Below, in pieces: positions 50,823-62,333 of a stretch of DNA of 64,000 nucleotides. The DNA comes from Flavobacteriales bacterium (GTDB lineage Bacteria; Bacteroidota; Bacteroidia; Flavobacteriales_F; PHOS-HE28): assembly GCA_019638115.1 (NCBI GenBank), contig JAHBUK010000001.1, forward strand, positions 310,001-374,000, read 5' to 3'. Below the pieces are notes generated by a model. The model ran no database searches and was not told the origin of the DNA. It saw nothing but the letters and a program-made list of their open reading frames with translations. Made by a program: the position numbers and the translations under genes. Position 1 is the first letter of the stretch. Each line of letters begins with the position of its first letter.

Positions 50823-52211
50823 ATGTCATCCAAAGTAGCTCTACGTGCCCTGCTCAGTGCGTTCGTCGTTCTGCCACTATCCGCCATGGCACAAGGCGGC
50901 ACACCACTGCCCTTGACCGGCCCCGGTGTGGAGAGCATCCTGCGCGGCGTGCTGGGCATGGGTAGCATCGTGGCCATTGCCTGGCTCTTCAGCGCAAAGC
51001 GGAAAAATGTGGACTGGCGCGTGGTAGGCATCGGCCTGCTCTTCCAGTTGGTCATTGCGCTCGGCATCCTTTACGTTCCTGCGGTGCAATCCATGTTCGA
51101 GTTCGTGGGCAAGCTCTTCGTGAAGGTGCTGGATTTCACCCGGATCGGCAGCGAGTTCCTCTTCCGTGGCTTGATGGACACGGAGAGCTTCGGCTTCATC
51201 TTCGCGTTGCAGATCCTTCCGACCATCATCTTCTTCAGCGCGCTCACCAGCGTACTGTTCTACTTAGGTGTGATCCAGAAAGTGGTGTACGCCTTGGCCT
51301 GGGCGCTGAACAAGACGATGCGCTTGAGCGGTGCCGAAAGCCTGAGCACCGCAGGCAACATCTTCCTGGGCCAGACCGAAGCGCCGCTGATGGTGAAGGC
51401 CTACCTGGACAAGATGAACCGCTCGGAGATCTTCCTGGTGATGACCGCCGGCATGGCCACGGTGGCCGGTGGTGTGCTCGCCGCCTACGTGGGTTTCCTC
51501 GGTGGCAATGACCCCGTGCTGAAGCTCTTCTTCGCCAAGCACCTGCTTACCGCCAGCGTAATGGCCGCACCCGGTGCCGTGGTGGTGGCCAAGATCCTGT
51601 ACCCGCAGACCGAGCCCATCGACCAGCGCATGGAGGTGAGCCAGGAAGTGGTAGGCAGCAATTTCCTCGATGCCATGGCCAAAGGCACCACCGAAGGCCT
51701 GAAGCTGGCCGTGAACGTGGGCGCCATGCTGCTGGTGTTCTTCGCCTTCATCGCCCTGTTCAACTTCGTGTTCATCAAGATCGGCGACCGCTCCGGCATC
51801 AACCCCTGGATCGCGGAGATCAGCAAAGGCAACTTCAAGGGTTTGTCGCTGGAGTTCATCCTGGGCTACCTCTTCGCCCCGCTCATGTGGCTGATCGGCG
51901 TGGCCGGCGAGGACATCACACTCACCGGCAGGCTCGTGGGCGAAAAGATCATAGCCAGTGAATTCGTGGGCTATGAAAGTCTCGCCAGCCTGAAAGCAGA
52001 AGGCGCTTTCACTTACCAGCGCAGCATCGTGATGGCCACGTACATGCTCTGCGGCTTCGCCAACTTCGCCAGCATCGGCATCCAGATCGGGGGCATCGGT
52101 TCACTGGCCCCGAGCAAGCGCGAGTGGTTGAGCGAGATGGGCTTCCGGGCACTGCTCGGCGGAACGCTGGCGTCGTTGCTCAGTGCCACGATCGTGGGGA
52201 TGTTGGTGTGA
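50823..52211 (+). CDS. Concentrative nucleoside transporter (CNT/NupC family)
   Basis: 462 residues from ATG 50823 (MSSKVALRALLSAFVVLPLSA, signal-like). The frame is open 60 bp upstream. The CNT motifs are GNIFLGQTEAPLMVKAYLDK, VMTAGMATVAGGVLAAYVGF, and NFASIGIQIGGIGSLAPSKR at the end; about ten membrane segments are seen. It imports nucleosides with H+ or Na+. It fits the purine/pyrimidine salvage genes elsewhere in the window. Confidence 0.93.
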   Translation: MSSKVALRALLSAFVVLPLSAMAQGGTPLPLTGPGVESILRGVLGMGSIVAIAWLFSAKRKNVDWRVVGIGLLFQLVIALGILYVPAVQSMFEFVGKLFVKVLDFTRIGSEFLFRGLMDTESFGFIFALQILPTIIFFSALTSVLFYLGVIQKVVYALAWALNKTMRLSGAESLSTAGNIFLGQTEAPLMVKAYLDKMNRSEIFLVMTAGMATVAGGVLAAYVGFLGGNDPVLKLFFAKHLLTASVMAAPGAVVVAKILYPQTEPIDQRMEVSQEVVGSNFLDAMAKGTTEGLKLAVNVGAMLLVFFAFIALFNFVFIKIGDRSGINPWIAEISKGNFKGLSLEFILGYLFAPLMWLIGVAGEDITLTGRLVGEKIIASEFVGYESLASLKAEGAFTYQRSIVMATYMLCGFANFASIGIQIGGIGSLAPSKREWLSEMGFRALLGGTLASLLSATIVGMLV

Positions 52212-52216
52212 GGGGC

Positions 52217-52380
52217 GGTTGTCTGTTGATAGTTGTCAGTTGTTCGTGCTGGCGCTCCGGGCTCGGCGGTAGGCTGAAAGCTGTGTGGGTTGAACTGCCA
52301 ATGCCACAGTGCGCAACCGCTGGCACCCAAGCAGCAACGCCCCCTGGCCCCCGGACAACTCACAACCGACCACGGACAAC
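52217..52380. repeat. Word repeat with inverted arms after the transporter gene
   Basis: GTTGTCTGTTGATAGTTGTC and CAGTTGTTCG start 6 bp after the stop; the inverse words (CGGACAACTCACAACC, CACGGACAAC) return at 52352-52380. About 100 nt with internal small hairpins lie between. A relative of these words is present inside the symporter gene at 63390. Confidence 0.55.
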
Positions 52381-52418
52381 CCTTCCCCAAAAAGCACAAG
52401 GCCCTCCACCACGCGGCC

Positions 52419-55586: not shown

Positions 55587-56714
55587 ATGAACATGAGCTA
55601 CTTCCACCGTACCCCCATCCGTTACCGCTTCATACTGCTCACTGCGGGGGTGCTGGCCACGCTCTTCCTGTTCCAGGCGTACATGCACTTCTTTGCCTAC
55701 CGCGAATTGAAGGGCTTGGAGCATTTCAATTGGTGGCGCGAAGCACCGGTACCCTACCTCAACTTCTTCTTCTGGGCCCTGCTCTGCCCATTGGCCTACC
55801 GCATCCTGCTGCGCTGGCCGTTGGGAAGGCGACCCTATCTGCGCACGTTCTCCATACACCTGCTGTTGGGCCTGCTCATCGCCTCGGTTCACGAGGTCTG
55901 CACCTCGGCCATCTACTACGCCATCCTGCAGTCCATCGGCGAGATCGACCTGCGTGATTCGTTCTATTCACAATGGGCACAACAGTCCCTGGCACCCGGC
56001 ATCCTGGGCAGGTTCATGGAATACGGCGTGCTGATGGGTGTGCTCTCCGCCTTGGAAAGTGCGCGCCTGCGCAGGGTTGAGCAGGAGCAGTTGATCCGCT
56101 TGGCCGGAGAACTGCAGGCCGCACAACTGAATGCGCTGAAGAAACAATTGCAACCCCACTTCCTCTTCAACACACTGAACACCGTTAGCGCGCTGATGGA
56201 CGAGAACATCAATGCCGCGCGAAAAGTGTTGAGCCGTCTTGGCCAATTGCTGCGTGTTACACTGGACAAGAGCGGACAGGACCACGTGAGCCTGGAACGC
56301 GAACTGGACTACATCGGCAACTACCTCGGCATAGAGGCTGAACGGTTCCGCGACCGGCTGAAGGTGAGTTACGACATACCTGCGGAACTGCTGCACGTGC
56401 CGGTGCCCAGCCTCATCCTGCAACCCTTGGTGGAGAACGCCATCAAACACGGTCCCGATGCATTGCACGAACAGGTGGAGATCCGCATCAAGGCCGAACG
56501 ACGCGAAAACATGTTAATGCTGCACGTGCTGGACAGCGGAAAGGGCACTAAGAACGTCCATACCGTGTTGGAGCAAGGTGGTATCGGATTGCGCAACGTG
56601 CGCGACCGCTTACACCTCCTTCACCCCAACAAGGCCACCTTCCGAATACCTCCCGTGGCAGGCAATGGATTCCATGTGGAACTGGGCATACCGATCGAAA
56701 CGAGCAAGGCATGA
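55587..56714 (+). CDS. LytS-type sensor histidine kinase
   Basis: 375 residues. Four membrane helices (about 13-30, 50-70, 80-105, 145-165) form the sensor part. The His_kinase (PF06580) box is LKKQLQPHFLFNTLNTVSAL, with the phosphorylated His in QPHFLFN, then LILQPLVENAIKHG (N-box) and a degenerate G-box (GIGLRNVRDRLHLL). It is the sensor of the pair; its stop overlaps the regulator start by 4 bp. Two starts (55587, 55593) are equally good. Confidence 0.92.
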   Translation: MNMSYFHRTPIRYRFILLTAGVLATLFLFQAYMHFFAYRELKGLEHFNWWREAPVPYLNFFFWALLCPLAYRILLRWPLGRRPYLRTFSIHLLLGLLIASVHEVCTSAIYYAILQSIGEIDLRDSFYSQWAQQSLAPGILGRFMEYGVLMGVLSALESARLRRVEQEQLIRLAGELQAAQLNALKKQLQPHFLFNTLNTVSALMDENINAARKVLSRLGQLLRVTLDKSGQDHVSLERELDYIGNYLGIEAERFRDRLKVSYDIPAELLHVPVPSLILQPLVENAIKHGPDALHEQVEIRIKAERRENMLMLHVLDSGKGTKNVHTVLEQGGIGLRNVRDRLHLLHPNKATFRIPPVAGNGFHVELGIPIETSKA

Positions 56715-57499
56715 AAGCGATAAGGACCATCATTGTGGATGACGAACCCGCAGCACGCGCACGCATAGCCCGGCTGCTCGCGCACGACCCCGGCATTGAA
56801 GTGCTCCGCGAATGCAGCAACGGTACCGAGGCTTTGGAGTGCATCCAGAAATGCCGACCCGACCTGCTCTTCCTGGACGTGCAAATGCCCGGCATGGACG
56901 GTTTCCAGGTGATGGAACAACTGGCGCGGATAAGCGGTCATGCCCCCCTGCCCTTCGTGGTATTCGTAACCGCCCATGACAAGTATGCCTTGAAAGCCTT
57001 CAATGTGAACGCCGTGGACTACTTGCTGAAGCCGTACGACGACGAGCGTTTCCATGCTTCGCTCGAAAAGGCACGCCGCTTCATCGAGATGCGCATGAGC
57101 ACCAAGCTCACCGGCAAGCTCATGGACCTGATGCGCGAACACCTGCAGCACAACAACACTTACACAAGCGCTTTCAACATCAAGGACAAAGGCCGCGAGC
57201 ACAAGGTGCGCGTGGAGGACCTGGTGTACCTGCGCTCCGAAGGCAACTACCTCTGCCTGCAACTCAAGGAACGCCACTTCCTGTACCGCATGACCATGAA
57301 CGCAGTGGAAAGCGAACTCGACCCCGAGCTCTTCCTGCGCATCCACCGCAGCTACATCGTGAACCGGGCACACGTGCGCAGCACGCGCTACAGCGGCAAC
57401 AACGAGTTCATCTTCAGCATGGCCAACGGCGAGCGCATCATTAGCGGGCGCAGCTACAAGGAGCAGATCGCCAAGGTGCTTGCGGAGCAGGAGGCTTGA
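56711..57499 (+). CDS. LytTR response regulator
   Basis: 262 residues. The receiver domain has TIIVDDEPAARARIARLL, the phosphorylation Asp in LLFLDVQMPGMDGFQVM, and a FVTAHDKYALKAFNVNAVDYLLKP loop of usual shape. The LytTR DNA-binding domain (about 155-262) has VRVEDLVYLRSEGNYLCLQL, FLRIHRSYIVNRAHV and ERIISGRSYKEQI. It works with the preceding kinase. Target genes cannot be named. Confidence 0.93.
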   Translation: MKAIRTIIVDDEPAARARIARLLAHDPGIEVLRECSNGTEALECIQKCRPDLLFLDVQMPGMDGFQVMEQLARISGHAPLPFVVFVTAHDKYALKAFNVNAVDYLLKPYDDERFHASLEKARRFIEMRMSTKLTGKLMDLMREHLQHNNTYTSAFNIKDKGREHKVRVEDLVYLRSEGNYLCLQLKERHFLYRMTMNAVESELDPELFLRIHRSYIVNRAHVRSTRYSGNNEFIFSMANGERIISGRSYKEQIAKVLAEQEA

Positions 57500-57502
57500 A
57501 TG

Positions 57503-57590
57503 CGCTGCTGGCCTCTGGCTACTGGCTGCTGGCCACCTTTTCCTCCGCCAGCAGCCAATAGCCAGCAGCTAATTGCCAGCAGCTAACTGC
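57503..57590. repeat. Word-hairpin repeat, left of the four-helix-bundle gene
   Basis: TGGCTACTGGCTGCTGGC (57516-57533) and GCCAGCAGCCAATAGCCA (57547-57564) form an 18-bp stem with one G-U type mismatch and a 13-nt loop. The words GCCAGCAG and GCAGCTAA are repeated further to 57590, 3 bp before the stop of the next gene. Confidence 0.7.
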
Positions 57591-57592
57591 CC

Positions 57593-57949
57593 TCAAGCAT
57601 TCAATACCCCCATGAAGGCCCCGATCTTCTTCTGAACGGTCACGACCTTCTCCAGGAACTTGTTCACCACAGCTTCATCCGCGTATTTCCGGCGTTGAAG
57701 GATCAGCATGCGCGTCTGTAGCTCGAACGCAGATCCAAGTGCGTATTCGAAGTAGCGGAACTTCTCCTTTTCGCTGCGACGCGAGCTTCCCTCGGCAATG
57801 TTGGATGCGATCGAACAGGCCGCATCGTCCGCTTGATCACGGATCTTGAACCCGGCTTTGGTCATCGGAATGGTTTCGAGAATATCCGTCACCTCAACAG
57901 CAATGTCCATCGCCATCTGCCACATTTCCAGTTTGGTGAAATCCCTCAT
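57593..57949 (-). CDS. Four-helix-bundle protein (S23/IVP, Avd-like fold)
   Basis: 118 residues: MRDFTKLEMWQMAMDIAVEV, ILETIPMTKAGFKIRDQADD, ACSIASNIAEGSSRRSEKEK, FRYFEYALGSAFELQTRMLI, and a last helix (ADEAVVNKFLEKVVTVQKKI). This is the four-helix-bundle family TIGR02436/PF05635, whose members occur as intervening-sequence proteins of 23S rRNA and resemble the Avd protein of diversity-generating retroelements. No reverse transcriptase or rRNA is near. It is bracketed by two word-hairpin repeats that share a 22-bp direct repeat (57547 and 58046), and is antisense to its neighbours. Confidence 0.88.
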   Translation of the reverse strand: MRDFTKLEMWQMAMDIAVEVTDILETIPMTKAGFKIRDQADDAACSIASNIAEGSSRRSEKEKFRYFEYALGSAFELQTRMLILQRRKYADEAVVNKFLEKVVTVQKKIGAFMGVLNA

Positions 57950-57989
57950 GGTCGTTCGTTTCGATCCAAGGTAATAACCCCGCTGCTCA

Positions 57990-58075
57990 CGCGCTACTGG
58001 CCACTATCTGCTGGCTACTGGCTACTCACCTTCCACCGATAACGAGCCAGCAGCCAATAGCCAGCAGCCAGTAGC
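57990..58075. repeat. Word-hairpin repeat, right of the four-helix-bundle gene
   Basis: CTGCTGGCTACTGGCTACTC (58008-58027) pairs imperfectly with GAGCCAGCAGCCAATAGC (from 58045). The 22 bases starting at 58046 are identical to those from 57547 on the other side of the gene. It runs up to the promoter element at 58080. Confidence 0.7.
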
Positions 58076-58092: not shown

Positions 58093-60681
58093 ATGCACTT
58101 CCGCCTTTCCCGGGCACTGCGCTTTATCGCGGTCACCCTCACACTTCACAACGCACACTTCACACTTCACACCTCAGCCCAACGCCCCCCCGCCCAACCC
58201 AACGCCGCCGAGATCCTGCACCGCATGCAGAAGCTCAACGTGCTGGGCAGCGTGCTCTACATCGTGGCGCATCCGGATGACGAGAACACCCGCCTGATCG
58301 CTTGGCTGGCCAACGGCAAGAAGGTGCGCACCGGCAACCTCAGCCTCACCCGTGGTGATGGCGGCCAGAACCTGATCGGTCCCGAGTTGGGCGATGCGCT
58401 CGGCATTATCCGCACGCAGGAACTGCTGGAGGCGCGGCGGATCGATGGCGGCGAGCAGTTCTTCACCCGGGCGGTGGACTTCGGTTACAGCAAGAACGCC
58501 GCCGAGAGCTTTGAGAAATGGGGCAAGCAGGAGGTGCTGAGCGATGTGGTGCGCGTGATCCGCATGTTCCGTCCCGATGTGATCATCACCCGTTTTGCGC
58601 CGGACCGCACTGCCGGCCACGGCCACCACGAGGCCAGCGCCATCCTCGCCGAGGAGGCCTTCGACCTGGCCGGTGACCCGAAGGCCTTTCCGGAGCAACT
58701 GGAACAAGGACTGGAAGTGTGGCAACCGCGCCGCCTCTTCTTCAACGGCAGCACCTGGTGGAACAAGGACCTGGCCACCATCGCTGAGAACGACCCCGAC
58801 TGGTTCAGCGTGGATGTGGGCGGCTACGACCCGCTGCTGGGCCTGAGCTACACGGAGATCGCCGGGCGCAGCCGCAGCATGCACAAGAGCCAGGGCTTTG
58901 GTGCGGCGGAAACGCGCGGGGAACAGTTGGAATACCTGAAGCTGATCAAAGGCGACCGACCGAAGACGAAGGACATATTCGAGGGGATCGATATGACTTG
59001 GGGGCGACTGAATGGTGCAGGAGCTACACACTATGCGCTCCAAAAGGCAATAGCGGCTTTCGCCATGTCAGCACCAACAAAGAGCAATGCTGAACTTCTA
59101 CGGATCAAGCTAGACATAGCCAGTTTGGGTAGAGACGGAACTAATGCTTGGTGGGTTCCTATGATCGAACGCGAGCTTGACAGACTCATAATGTACACCA
59201 ATGGCTTGGTCGTAGAGGTCGTATCGAAAGCCCCGTACGAATCGCTGGCAGATACGCTGACACTCACACTGAGTGCGCTACAGCGTAGTGCTGGGCTGCC
59301 GTTGTCGTTGAAGCATTTATCGGAACCTGATATTGTGAGCCTAAGGCTGAACAAGGATCTGGAACCAACTGTGAAGTGGGAACATCAGCTGGAACTACAG
59401 CCTGGAACCTATACGGATTTCGATCAGCCATACTGGTTGAGAAGACCCCACAGCGATCTGTATGATATGGCTGGCGCTCCCTATCTGACTGTTGACCCTG
59501 TGGACAACAATCAAGTGCATTTTCATTTCTCAATGGGTACAAGTGAAAGAGTGACGATCAGTGGACAACTTCACGCCCACTACAAATGGGTCGACCGCGT
59601 GGCCGGTGAGCGCATCCGCCCGGTGTATATAACGCCCGTGGCCTCGGTGATCCCGAAGAGCGACCAGGTCCTTATTCGCGCAGATGAAGGCATGGATAAG
59701 GTCATTGAATTGGATGCTGAAATTGTAGCGCTCACAGATAGTCTCTTTGGTGAACTACGGGTGGACGTGCCCGGTTGGCACGCTACGCTGTCCGCCTCCC
59801 AGGCTGTGAGCATTGAGAAGCGTGGTCAATCTCAGAAACTCAGGTTTCGATTCACCGTTGGTGATCTGCACCTATCAGGAACTGAGGTTGCCAAAGCGAA
59901 GTTCACTTTCACCGGCCCCAAGGGCACCGCCGACCGCACCCTGCACGAGATCGACTACCCGCACATCATGCCGCAGGTGTACTACACGCCCGCCGAGGTG
60001 AAGCTGGTGCCGCTGGAGGTAACGACCACCGCCAAGCGCGTGGGCTACGTGAAAGGCGCGGGCGATGATGTACCGCAAGCGCTGGAGCAACTGGGTGTGG
60101 TGGTGGAGTTCATCGAGCCTTCCTCGGCCAAGCTGGAAGAGTTGAAGAAGTACGATGCCATCGTCACCGGCATCCGCGCCTACAACGCCACCAAGGGCAT
60201 GCGGGAGCTGCACCCGCTGCTGCTGCAGTACGTGGAGGAAGGCGGCACGCTCATCGTGCAGTACAACACCACCCCGCGCTTCTTCTCCGGCGCCAGCGAC
60301 TTCCAGATCGATCCCGCCACGTTGGGTCCCAGGCCCTTCACCATCACCCGCGGCCGTGTGACGGTGGAGGAAGCAGCACCCACCTTCCCCAACCCCAAGC
60401 ACCCGCTGCTCAACACCCCGAACAAGATCACCGCAGCAGACTTCGAGGGCTGGGTGCAGGAGCGCGGCCTCTACTTCGCCGGCGACTTCGCCCCGCACTA
60501 CACACCGCTCATCAGCTGGAACGACCCCGGCGAGGAACCGCTGGACGGCGCGCTGATCGCGATGGACCATGGCAAGGGACGCTTCATCTACACGGGCATC
60601 AGCTTCTTCCGGCAGTTGCCGGCGGGGGTACCGGGAGCTTATCGGCTGTGGGGGAATTTGATCTCGCCGCGCAAGCCCTGA
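58093..60681 (+). CDS. PIG-L family deacetylase with C-terminal GATase-like domain
   Basis: 862 residues. The N-terminal signal region is odd: it is built from a CACTTCACA repeat (VTLTLHNAHFTLHTSAQ). Then comes the PIG-L domain with the metal motif LYIVAHPDDENTRLIAW, GQNLIGPELGDALGIIRTQE and a distant HGHHEAS. Family knowledge: these zinc enzymes remove N-acetyl groups from GlcNAc-type substrates. A middle beta region (about 290-600) is followed by a ThuA/GATase1-like domain (DAIVTGIRAYNATKGM, GGTLIVQYNTTPRF, GKGRFIYTGISFFRQLPAG). Codon use changes in the middle (low GC at 58980-59580 and at parts of 59670-59890). It is secreted or periplasmic. Confidence 0.88.
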   Translation: MHFRLSRALRFIAVTLTLHNAHFTLHTSAQRPPAQPNAAEILHRMQKLNVLGSVLYIVAHPDDENTRLIAWLANGKKVRTGNLSLTRGDGGQNLIGPELGDALGIIRTQELLEARRIDGGEQFFTRAVDFGYSKNAAESFEKWGKQEVLSDVVRVIRMFRPDVIITRFAPDRTAGHGHHEASAILAEEAFDLAGDPKAFPEQLEQGLEVWQPRRLFFNGSTWWNKDLATIAENDPDWFSVDVGGYDPLLGLSYTEIAGRSRSMHKSQGFGAAETRGEQLEYLKLIKGDRPKTKDIFEGIDMTWGRLNGAGATHYALQKAIAAFAMSAPTKSNAELLRIKLDIASLGRDGTNAWWVPMIERELDRLIMYTNGLVVEVVSKAPYESLADTLTLTLSALQRSAGLPLSLKHLSEPDIVSLRLNKDLEPTVKWEHQLELQPGTYTDFDQPYWLRRPHSDLYDMAGAPYLTVDPVDNNQVHFHFSMGTSERVTISGQLHAHYKWVDRVAGERIRPVYITPVASVIPKSDQVLIRADEGMDKVIELDAEIVALTDSLFGELRVDVPGWHATLSASQAVSIEKRGQSQKLRFRFTVGDLHLSGTEVAKAKFTFTGPKGTADRTLHEIDYPHIMPQVYYTPAEVKLVPLEVTTTAKRVGYVKGAGDDVPQALEQLGVVVEFIEPSSAKLEELKKYDAIVTGIRAYNATKGMRELHPLLLQYVEEGGTLIVQYNTTPRFFSGASDFQIDPATLGPRPFTITRGRVTVEEAAPTFPNPKHPLLNTPNKITAADFEGWVQERGLYFAGDFAPHYTPLISWNDPGEEPLDGALIAMDHGKGRFIYTGISFFRQLPAGVPGAYRLWGNLISPRKP

Positions 60682-60683
60682 TC

Positions 60684-60772
60684 TATGAGATGAATGGCGA
60701 ATGGTCATTGGTGAATGGACCCCGGGCGGGCATTTCCCATTCGCCATTCACCAATGACCATTCACCCTTGAG
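60684..60772. repeat. Word-hairpin repeat, copy 1 of the GAATGG family
   Basis: GAATGGTCATTGGTGAATGG (60699-60718) has an exact inverse at 60744-60763. The loop contains the conserved core CGGGCATTTCCC (60727-60738), found again at 62185 and 62285. Confidence 0.8.
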
Positions 60773-62143: not shown

Positions 62144-62333
62144 TATGGTGAATGGCGAATGGTCAATGGTGAATGGTCCCCATCCGGGCATTTCCCGTTC
62201 GCCATTCACCGCTCCCCATTCACCGGGCTATTCCATGACCACTGTAGCAAGTCGCGGAGCATCATGGGTGTATGGCCCCCGAACGGGCATCCCCCATTCG
62301 CCATTCACCAACTCCCATTCACCAGTATTCATC
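62144..62333. repeat. Word repeat of the GAATGG family, copies 2 and 3
   Basis: Left arm GGTGAATGGCGAATGGTC, core CGGGCATTTCCC (62185-62196), right arm TTCGCCATTCACC; then exactly 100 bp further the core again as CGGGCATCCCCC (62285-62296) with CATTCGCCATTCACC. The third copy lacks most of the left arm. It ends just before the symporter start. Confidence 0.75.

Follow-up and report, generated by a model that had tools for sequence, protein, structure and literature searches.

In Coxiella, the rRNA intervening sequence (IVS) consists of an S23p open reading frame (ORF) held in a stem-loop that is bounded by 28-bp terminal inverted repeats and cut by RNase III, and the published rRNA IVSs, from Coxiella, Leptospira and others, are patchily distributed and suspected of mobility as selfish elements (PMC4990558). 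CPR bacteria, too, have rRNA insertions with IVP ORFs (PMC11270868), and homology to PF05635 has been noted for Avd, the DGR accessory protein (PMC10053308). Two further systems have parts that recall the locus described here. In REPIN-RAYT systems, hairpin repeats flank a single gene, a Y1 HUH transposase, and are also dispersed without a gene but with matching sequence (PMC3116915). TAACTGA heptamer repeats occur in Beggiatoaceae, Cyanobacteria and Bacteroidetes, and their horizontal transmission has been proposed, with the mechanism not known (PMC4679880). The S23/IVP family is itself without known function, and heptamer arrays have so far been reported without a mechanism or a partner.

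Here we analyse a gene of this family in a 64,000-nucleotide stretch of a Flavobacteriales genome, referred to as the window. With a probability of roughly 0.6, we read the locus as an IVS-type cassette, that is, a hairpin-bounded single-gene element in which an S23/IVP gene lies between inverted arms of a locus-specific 7-nt word. The initial annotation of the window had proposed an undescribed mobile or RNA-based unit; the anatomy and the recurrence of gene plus hairpins as a unit are borne out below, whereas the suggested retro-mobility and RNA guidance are not.

A four-helix-bundle gene between hairpins of one word family

The features of the locus are the following (window coordinates; strand where one applies):

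56711..57499, + strand, LytTR response regulator on the left side, its synteny conserved in relatives whether or not they carry the element
about 57504..57590, word hairpin 3' of the four-helix-bundle gene (inverted repeats I4, I5 and I10)
57504..57533, left member of the outer arm pair, with 87% complementarity to 58046-58075 on the far side of the gene (I2); contributes to the long outer stem when the fold is predicted
57547..57569, + strand, perfect 23-bp direct repeat, left copy (GCCAGCAGCCAATAGCCAGCAGC)
57593..57949, - strand, gene of the S23/IVP-type four-helix-bundle (4HB) protein (118 aa), with ATG as start codon
57993..58075, word hairpin 5' of the 4HB gene (inverted repeats I3, I7 and I9)
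58046..58068, + strand, perfect 23-bp direct repeat, right copy (GCCAGCAGCCAATAGCCAGCAGC)
58046..58075, outer right arm, pairing with 57504-57533 (I2; predicted fold)
58093..60681, + strand, PIG-L family deacetylase on the right side, its synteny conserved in relatives

The 3' hairpin, 3 bp from the stop codon, is composed of an arm at 57504-57533 (TGGCTACTGGCTGCTGGC words), a loop and an arm at 57547-57590 (GCCAGCA GCCAATA words). The same words make up the arms of the 5' hairpin (57993-58026 and 58045-58075, separated by a loop), which lies 43 bp from the start codon, and a single 7-nt word family, [AT]GC[CT]A[AG][CT], underlies both hairpins. The enclosure of the gene by hairpins of shared words is as initially described; the perfect direct repeat reported on both sides of the gene is also present, but measures 23 bp instead of 22 bp. 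In the predicted RNA fold of the 578-nt unit (-252.9 kcal/mol), the flanks pair into a single long stem whose loop contains the gene. An S23/IVP ORF enclosed by terminal inverted repeats, here the outer arms, is the arrangement of an IVS; the window element does not, however, lie inside an rRNA gene but between the LytTR regulator and the PIG-L gene, antisense to both neighbours, unlike most of its relatives.

Both profile and fold place the gene in the S23/IVP family. Its product matched PF05635 (E 2.7e-25; 89 bits versus a curated cut-off of 33.8) and TIGR02436 (score of 90 versus a cut-off of 24) in profile searches, and the AlphaFold model (pLDDT 92) predicts a bundle of four helices, for which the best Foldseek matches were 2gsc and 2rld (TM 0.87 each), both uncharacterised members of the family. 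Avd of a Bordetella phage DGR (4dwl, 8ub8) was a more distant match (TM about 0.7-0.8, E 0.1-0.2), with a similar fold at about 10% sequence identity. The 4HB proteins are of mixed charge (pI 5.3-9.4), in itself no argument for nucleic-acid binding.

Other repeats of this kind were seen in the window. A GTTGTCAGTTGT / GACAACTCACAACCGAC word hairpin at 52210-52390, similar in style to those of the 4HB gene, is located between two genes, and a CACTTCA heptad array (58137-58176) lies inside the 5' end of the PIG-L gene, in the signal-peptide region, where several PIG-L orthologues carry other heptad-like words, e.g. CTTTCAG and CACCCTT.

Reverse transcriptases and transposases

The fold similarity to the Bordetella phage Avd is what speaks for a retro-mobile unit, in which an Avd-like 4HB protein would rely on a reverse transcriptase provided in trans, as the initial annotation had envisaged. 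An Avd protein has a partner reverse transcriptase, but a Pfam RVT_1 search of this genome (100% complete) gave no match, although control genomes do give matches, and the template and variable repeats of DGRs were not seen here. A reverse transcriptase acting on the unit in trans was therefore rejected, leaving retro-mobility very improbable.

The suggested kinship to IS200/IS605 fared no better: the only gene of the unit encodes a four-helix bundle, not the Y1 HUH transposase of IS200/IS605 or REPIN-RAYT elements. The Y1-transposase genes of this genome with readable flanks, L183 (G000:C7:18621) and L184 (G000:C3:501443), are accompanied by repeats unlike the word arrays (CCCGTAGGGACG or CACCGGCTGGAAGC), and since these REPs are their own and different, movement of the unit by the resident Y1 transposases was rejected. 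Given these other repeats and the lack of RVT_1, both retro-mobility and IS200/IS605 membership are unsupported, and nothing in support of RNA guidance was found. The palindromic repeats in which L183 and L184 sit (CCCGTAGGGACG; CACCGGCTGGAAGCCGGTG) are classical RAYT/REP layouts, and two other candidate Y1 genes, L185 and L186, seem spurious, lying in long frames. A phage origin was also rejected, as the phage collection gave no match to a consensus probe of the family.

Word arrays bracket all eleven 4HB genes of the genome

The genome contains 11 PF05635 genes, all of which are flanked on both sides by word arrays, with an own word for each gene. The words are GCTGATT, AATGGTG, GTTAGTC, CACTGTC, GAGTGGC, GGATGTGG, CATGTGCC, TTGAAGC, GGAGGTRA, which is the word of two paralogues, and GCCAGCA, that of the window gene. 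Measured as shared 10-mers, the left and right flanks of each of these genes have 13-167 bp in common, whereas mismatched flanks average 3.9 bp and control ORFs (n = 272) 7.4 bp. The 11 x 11 matrix of left versus right flanks is strongly diagonal, and every gene passed the direct or the inverted flank test. The word-array bracket around 4HB genes is the rule in this genome, far beyond chance.

The sole large off-diagonal cell of the matrix pairs L008 with L009, paralogues that are 87% identical and located at unrelated sites. Their nucleotide homology begins at the start codon and ends 31 bp beyond the stop codon, and their arms have words in common but are not alignable. We read this pattern as a probable duplication of the unit, followed by fast turnover of the arms.

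The layout recurs across several phyla

Among 80 loci from the genome, the genus and the class, the inverted left/right alignments exceeded the 99th percentile of 6320 mismatched flank pairs in 46 loci and the 95th percentile in 63; in 12 loci, neither inverted nor direct arms exceeded the 95th percentile. In a phylum-wide sample of 30 loci, comprising the best hit per genome, 19 exceeded the 95th percentile versus 3 of 120 displaced flank pairs from the same contigs, and several of the 11 sub-threshold loci had arms visible by eye. Local alignment of inverted flanks performed better than a k-mer sharing statistic, which missed AT-rich, short-armed loci outside the genus. The 7-nt periodicity was found in every taxon set, with positional identity at lags of 7 and 14 reaching 0.34-0.43 versus about 0.25 in displaced flanks. 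Clear inverted arms were also present in most of the plasmid loci (n = 12; Cyanobacteria, Gemmatimonadota, Azospirillum and Riemerella) retrieved with the probe used for phages, a hand-made family consensus rather than an actual protein sequence. In Bacteroidota the S23/IVP family is common, occurring in 90 of 118 genomes with up to 16 copies. Judged from these comparisons, the layout recurs in most homologues of the genus, class and phylum, as well as in Cyanobacteria, Gemmatimonadota and Azospirillum. The proposed inspection of other 4HB genes in the genome and its relatives has thus revealed word hairpins of shared words around most of them; a minority of homologues have no clear arm pair.

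Several plasmid homologues lie between functionally linked genes. In the cyanobacterial plasmids (L187, L189, L191 and L198), 4HB cassettes are found between nrdB and nrdA, as in Nostoc, and inside CRISPR-Cas operons (cas6/cas4, cas10/cmr3). Between co-oriented neighbours, the sense orientation was commoner (37 versus 11, counted over sampled loci that are not phylogenetically independent), a strand preference that fits a constraint at the RNA level, although the window copy is antisense.

In the open-access PMC papers searched, we found neither a paper linking four-helix-bundle genes to flanking word arrays nor a description of gene plus hairpins as a recurrent unit. The TAACTGA heptamers (PMC4679880) and the cyanobacterial STRR heptamers are likewise intergenic 7-nt direct repeats in overlapping taxa; the TAACTGA repeats, however, are direct arrays of one word rather than paired arms, and no four-helix-bundle gene is linked to them there.

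A cassette of the same anatomy inside a 23S rRNA gene

One plasmid locus of Azospirillum lipoferum, L196, lies inside a 23S rRNA gene (Rfam RF02541, 2464 bits), which is interrupted by an S23/IVP ORF with complementary heptad arms on each side (AGAGGACGGATGACAGAGGACGGAGGACAG and TCCGTCCTCTGTCTTCTGTCATCCGTCTTCTG). This locus, the single rRNA-embedded case with heptad arms, combines the rRNA site with the arms of the intergenic cassettes, so that IVS and intergenic cassette have in common the gene, the bracket and, here, the heptad arms. The link of the 4HB gene to rRNA insertions, anticipated from the window sequence, is therefore real. The window element belongs to the same protein family as the rRNA IVSs (PMC4990558) and, like them, has its ORF in the loop of a terminal-inverted-repeat stem. 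It differs from them in that it and most of its relatives are located between protein genes and not in rRNA, in that the arms are gene-specific, fast-changing arrays of 7-nt words, and in that the hairpins are also dispersed in the genome without a gene.

Occupied, decayed and empty versions of the same sites

The window site is occupied by the gene in five genomes (G000, G016, G059, G014 and G046). Window-type genes (at least 74% identity) were found at this one site only, in 5 of the 45 genus genomes, and the gene therefore behaves there as a resident, lost or kept. Five gene-less relatives have the two neighbours adjacent; a short word hairpin is present in two of them (L128, L133) and absent from three (L136, L137, L141). 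Persistence of the hairpins in strains lacking the gene had been named as grounds against the unit: it holds for two of the five, in shortened form, and the retained hairpins also fit gene loss from a bounded unit. The neighbourhood of L121, from a public record titled Chryseobacterium gleum, closely resembles that of the window, and the label of this record may be wrong.

A second site, between sufB and sufC, carries a cassette in 11 sampled genomes. The 4HB proteins encoded there are near-monophyletic (13 tips, with an MRCA of 15 of the 87 tips), in a clade that extends over about ten families, and the site was therefore probably occupied long ago. L176 falls outside this clade and groups with L083, an sdh-operon copy of another genome, indicative of a likely re-insertion at sufB-sufC. 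In the L176 genome (G042), the last 66 bp of sufB are found on both sides of the cassette, the copies being about 80% identical, as though the cassette had brought donor sufB sequence along and duplicated the end of the gene. The words at sufB-sufC are wholly different in most families (GTTTCAG, AAAGTTT, GGTTTAG, GTTCGAA, GCTGATT, GCGTGTT), with several AT-rich words resembling one another. Despite this change of words at a conserved site, the arms stay complementary: alignments of own arms had a mean of 17.8 versus 9.0 for cross pairs and exceeded the 95th percentile in 7 of 11 cases, in a test on the whole junction in which some arms overlap the ORF end. The search for empty sites was also successful, yielding sufB-sufC junctions of 15-48 bp. 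Decay of the site is seen in L180, where a 79-bp gap holds a remnant of the 3' end of the gene, in L172, which has just a word hairpin, and in L170, whose ORF is decayed.

These sites bear on the main rival to an IVS-type element, namely a cis-regulatory unit in which the hairpins would be binding sites of the protein on its own mRNA or DNA (autoregulation or insulation) and the gene-less hairpins the targets of its regulon. Such a unit would account for arms near the start and stop codons, for one word per gene, for the genome-wide recurrence of resident words and for the old vertical persistence at sufB-sufC. It accounts less readily for arms that lie on both sides and are mutually complementary, even in 23S rRNA where mRNA regulation is unneeded, that often closely abut the neighbouring host genes and that are missing at empty sites, and we consider cis-regulation unlikely.

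Gene-less hairpins mostly carry the words of resident genes

Three gene-less arrays are located in the window to the right of the PIG-L gene, all with the word of the 4HB gene L011 (C1:936821):

60694..60768, AATGGTG word hairpin
62145..62224, second AATGGTG word hairpin
62293..62323, short AATGGTG word array

Word hairpins elsewhere in the window had been taken for possible relics of the window unit; gene-less hairpins with the words of resident 4HB genes do exist, but those at 60.7, 62.1 and 62.3 kb belong to L011 and not to the window gene. In 464 kb of this genome, from which the background counts were taken, 14 gene-less arrays passed an automatic periodicity filter, and an earlier choice by eye had given the same outcome. 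Words of the 11 resident genes were found in 11 of these 14 arrays, whereas 1000 random 11-gene sets from the genus matched 5 of the 14 at most. Dispersed gene-less hairpins that share the hairpin sequence of a resident gene are a likeness to REPIN-RAYT systems (PMC3116915), from which the present elements differ in having a four-helix bundle in place of the transposase and many word families per genome, the true Y1 genes here being associated with other repeats. Two gene-less arrays, L038:4056-4325 and L049:17401-17495, are joined to a TTACGCTGAGCGAAGTCGAAGCGTC hairpin, a repeat that recurs in this genome.

AGCCAGC-type arrays occur also in genomes without a window-type gene, and across the 45 genus genomes gene-less sites of the window word, one word family, were found in 2 of the 5 genomes with the gene and in about 7 of the 40 without it. 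Because the window word is thus not clearly gene-dependent across the genus, the master/satellite relation is supported within this genome only.

It could instead be that the hairpins came first, with the word arrays constituting a repeat family of their own that other enzymes spread and the 4HB genes being inserted or surviving passengers. Gene-less arrays (also in genomes without an orthologue), the hairpins kept at two gene-less window sites and the description of TAACTGA arrays without mention of a 4HB gene (PMC4679880) are consistent with such an order of events. An independent family would not, however, be expected to provide each gene with its own word, common to both sides and mostly not to other genes, to use resident gene words in 11 of 14 gene-less arrays, or to be associated with 4HB genes across phyla through unrelated words, and the Y1-transposase genes L183 and L184 carry other repeats. 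We regard this order as improbable, less likely than cis-regulation.

Discussion

The evidence favours the IVS-type cassette, and the window element is probably selfish and REPIN-like in its dispersal, with arms that in RNA probably fold into an RNase III-type stem. Processing of such a stem by RNase III-type cleavage is established for rRNA IVSs; if the paired arms of the cassettes were cut in the same way, insertion into operons or rRNA would be tolerated for that reason. The arms may be renewed by 7-nt slippage together with copying in which, within the hairpin, one arm serves as template for its partner. Spread of the whole unit would be rare and that of gene-less hairpins more frequent, as with REPINs, presumably through host replication or repair. 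As to the function of the 4HB protein and the way the element would move, we infer that the word hairpin, in the form of DNA or of RNA, is bound by the protein and maintained or spread with its help. In the sequence comparison of the sampled loci, no transposition was seen directly and no target-site duplication was defined.

We class the heptad-bracketed S23/IVP element as IVS-type, with a considerable chance that the entire class merits a name of its own. Ribosomal intervening sequences seem to be a small part of a far more extensive family of compact elements that are probably selfish. More tentatively, and at somewhat below even odds, S23/IVP cassettes may constitute a large unrecognised class of mobile elements over several phyla, in which a non-transposase 4HB protein generates or propagates its own heptad-word hairpins and spawns gene-less satellites, such that rRNA IVSs, cyanobacterial heptamers and the arrays of Bacteroidota would stem from one mechanism.

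Joining the S23/IVP family, the heptamer arrays and the rRNA IVSs gives the family a testable biology. It raises the questions of whether the 4HB protein recognises its own word and of how both arms change in sequence yet stay complementary. Should the element prove mobile, it would do without any recombinase or reverse transcriptase that can be recognised.
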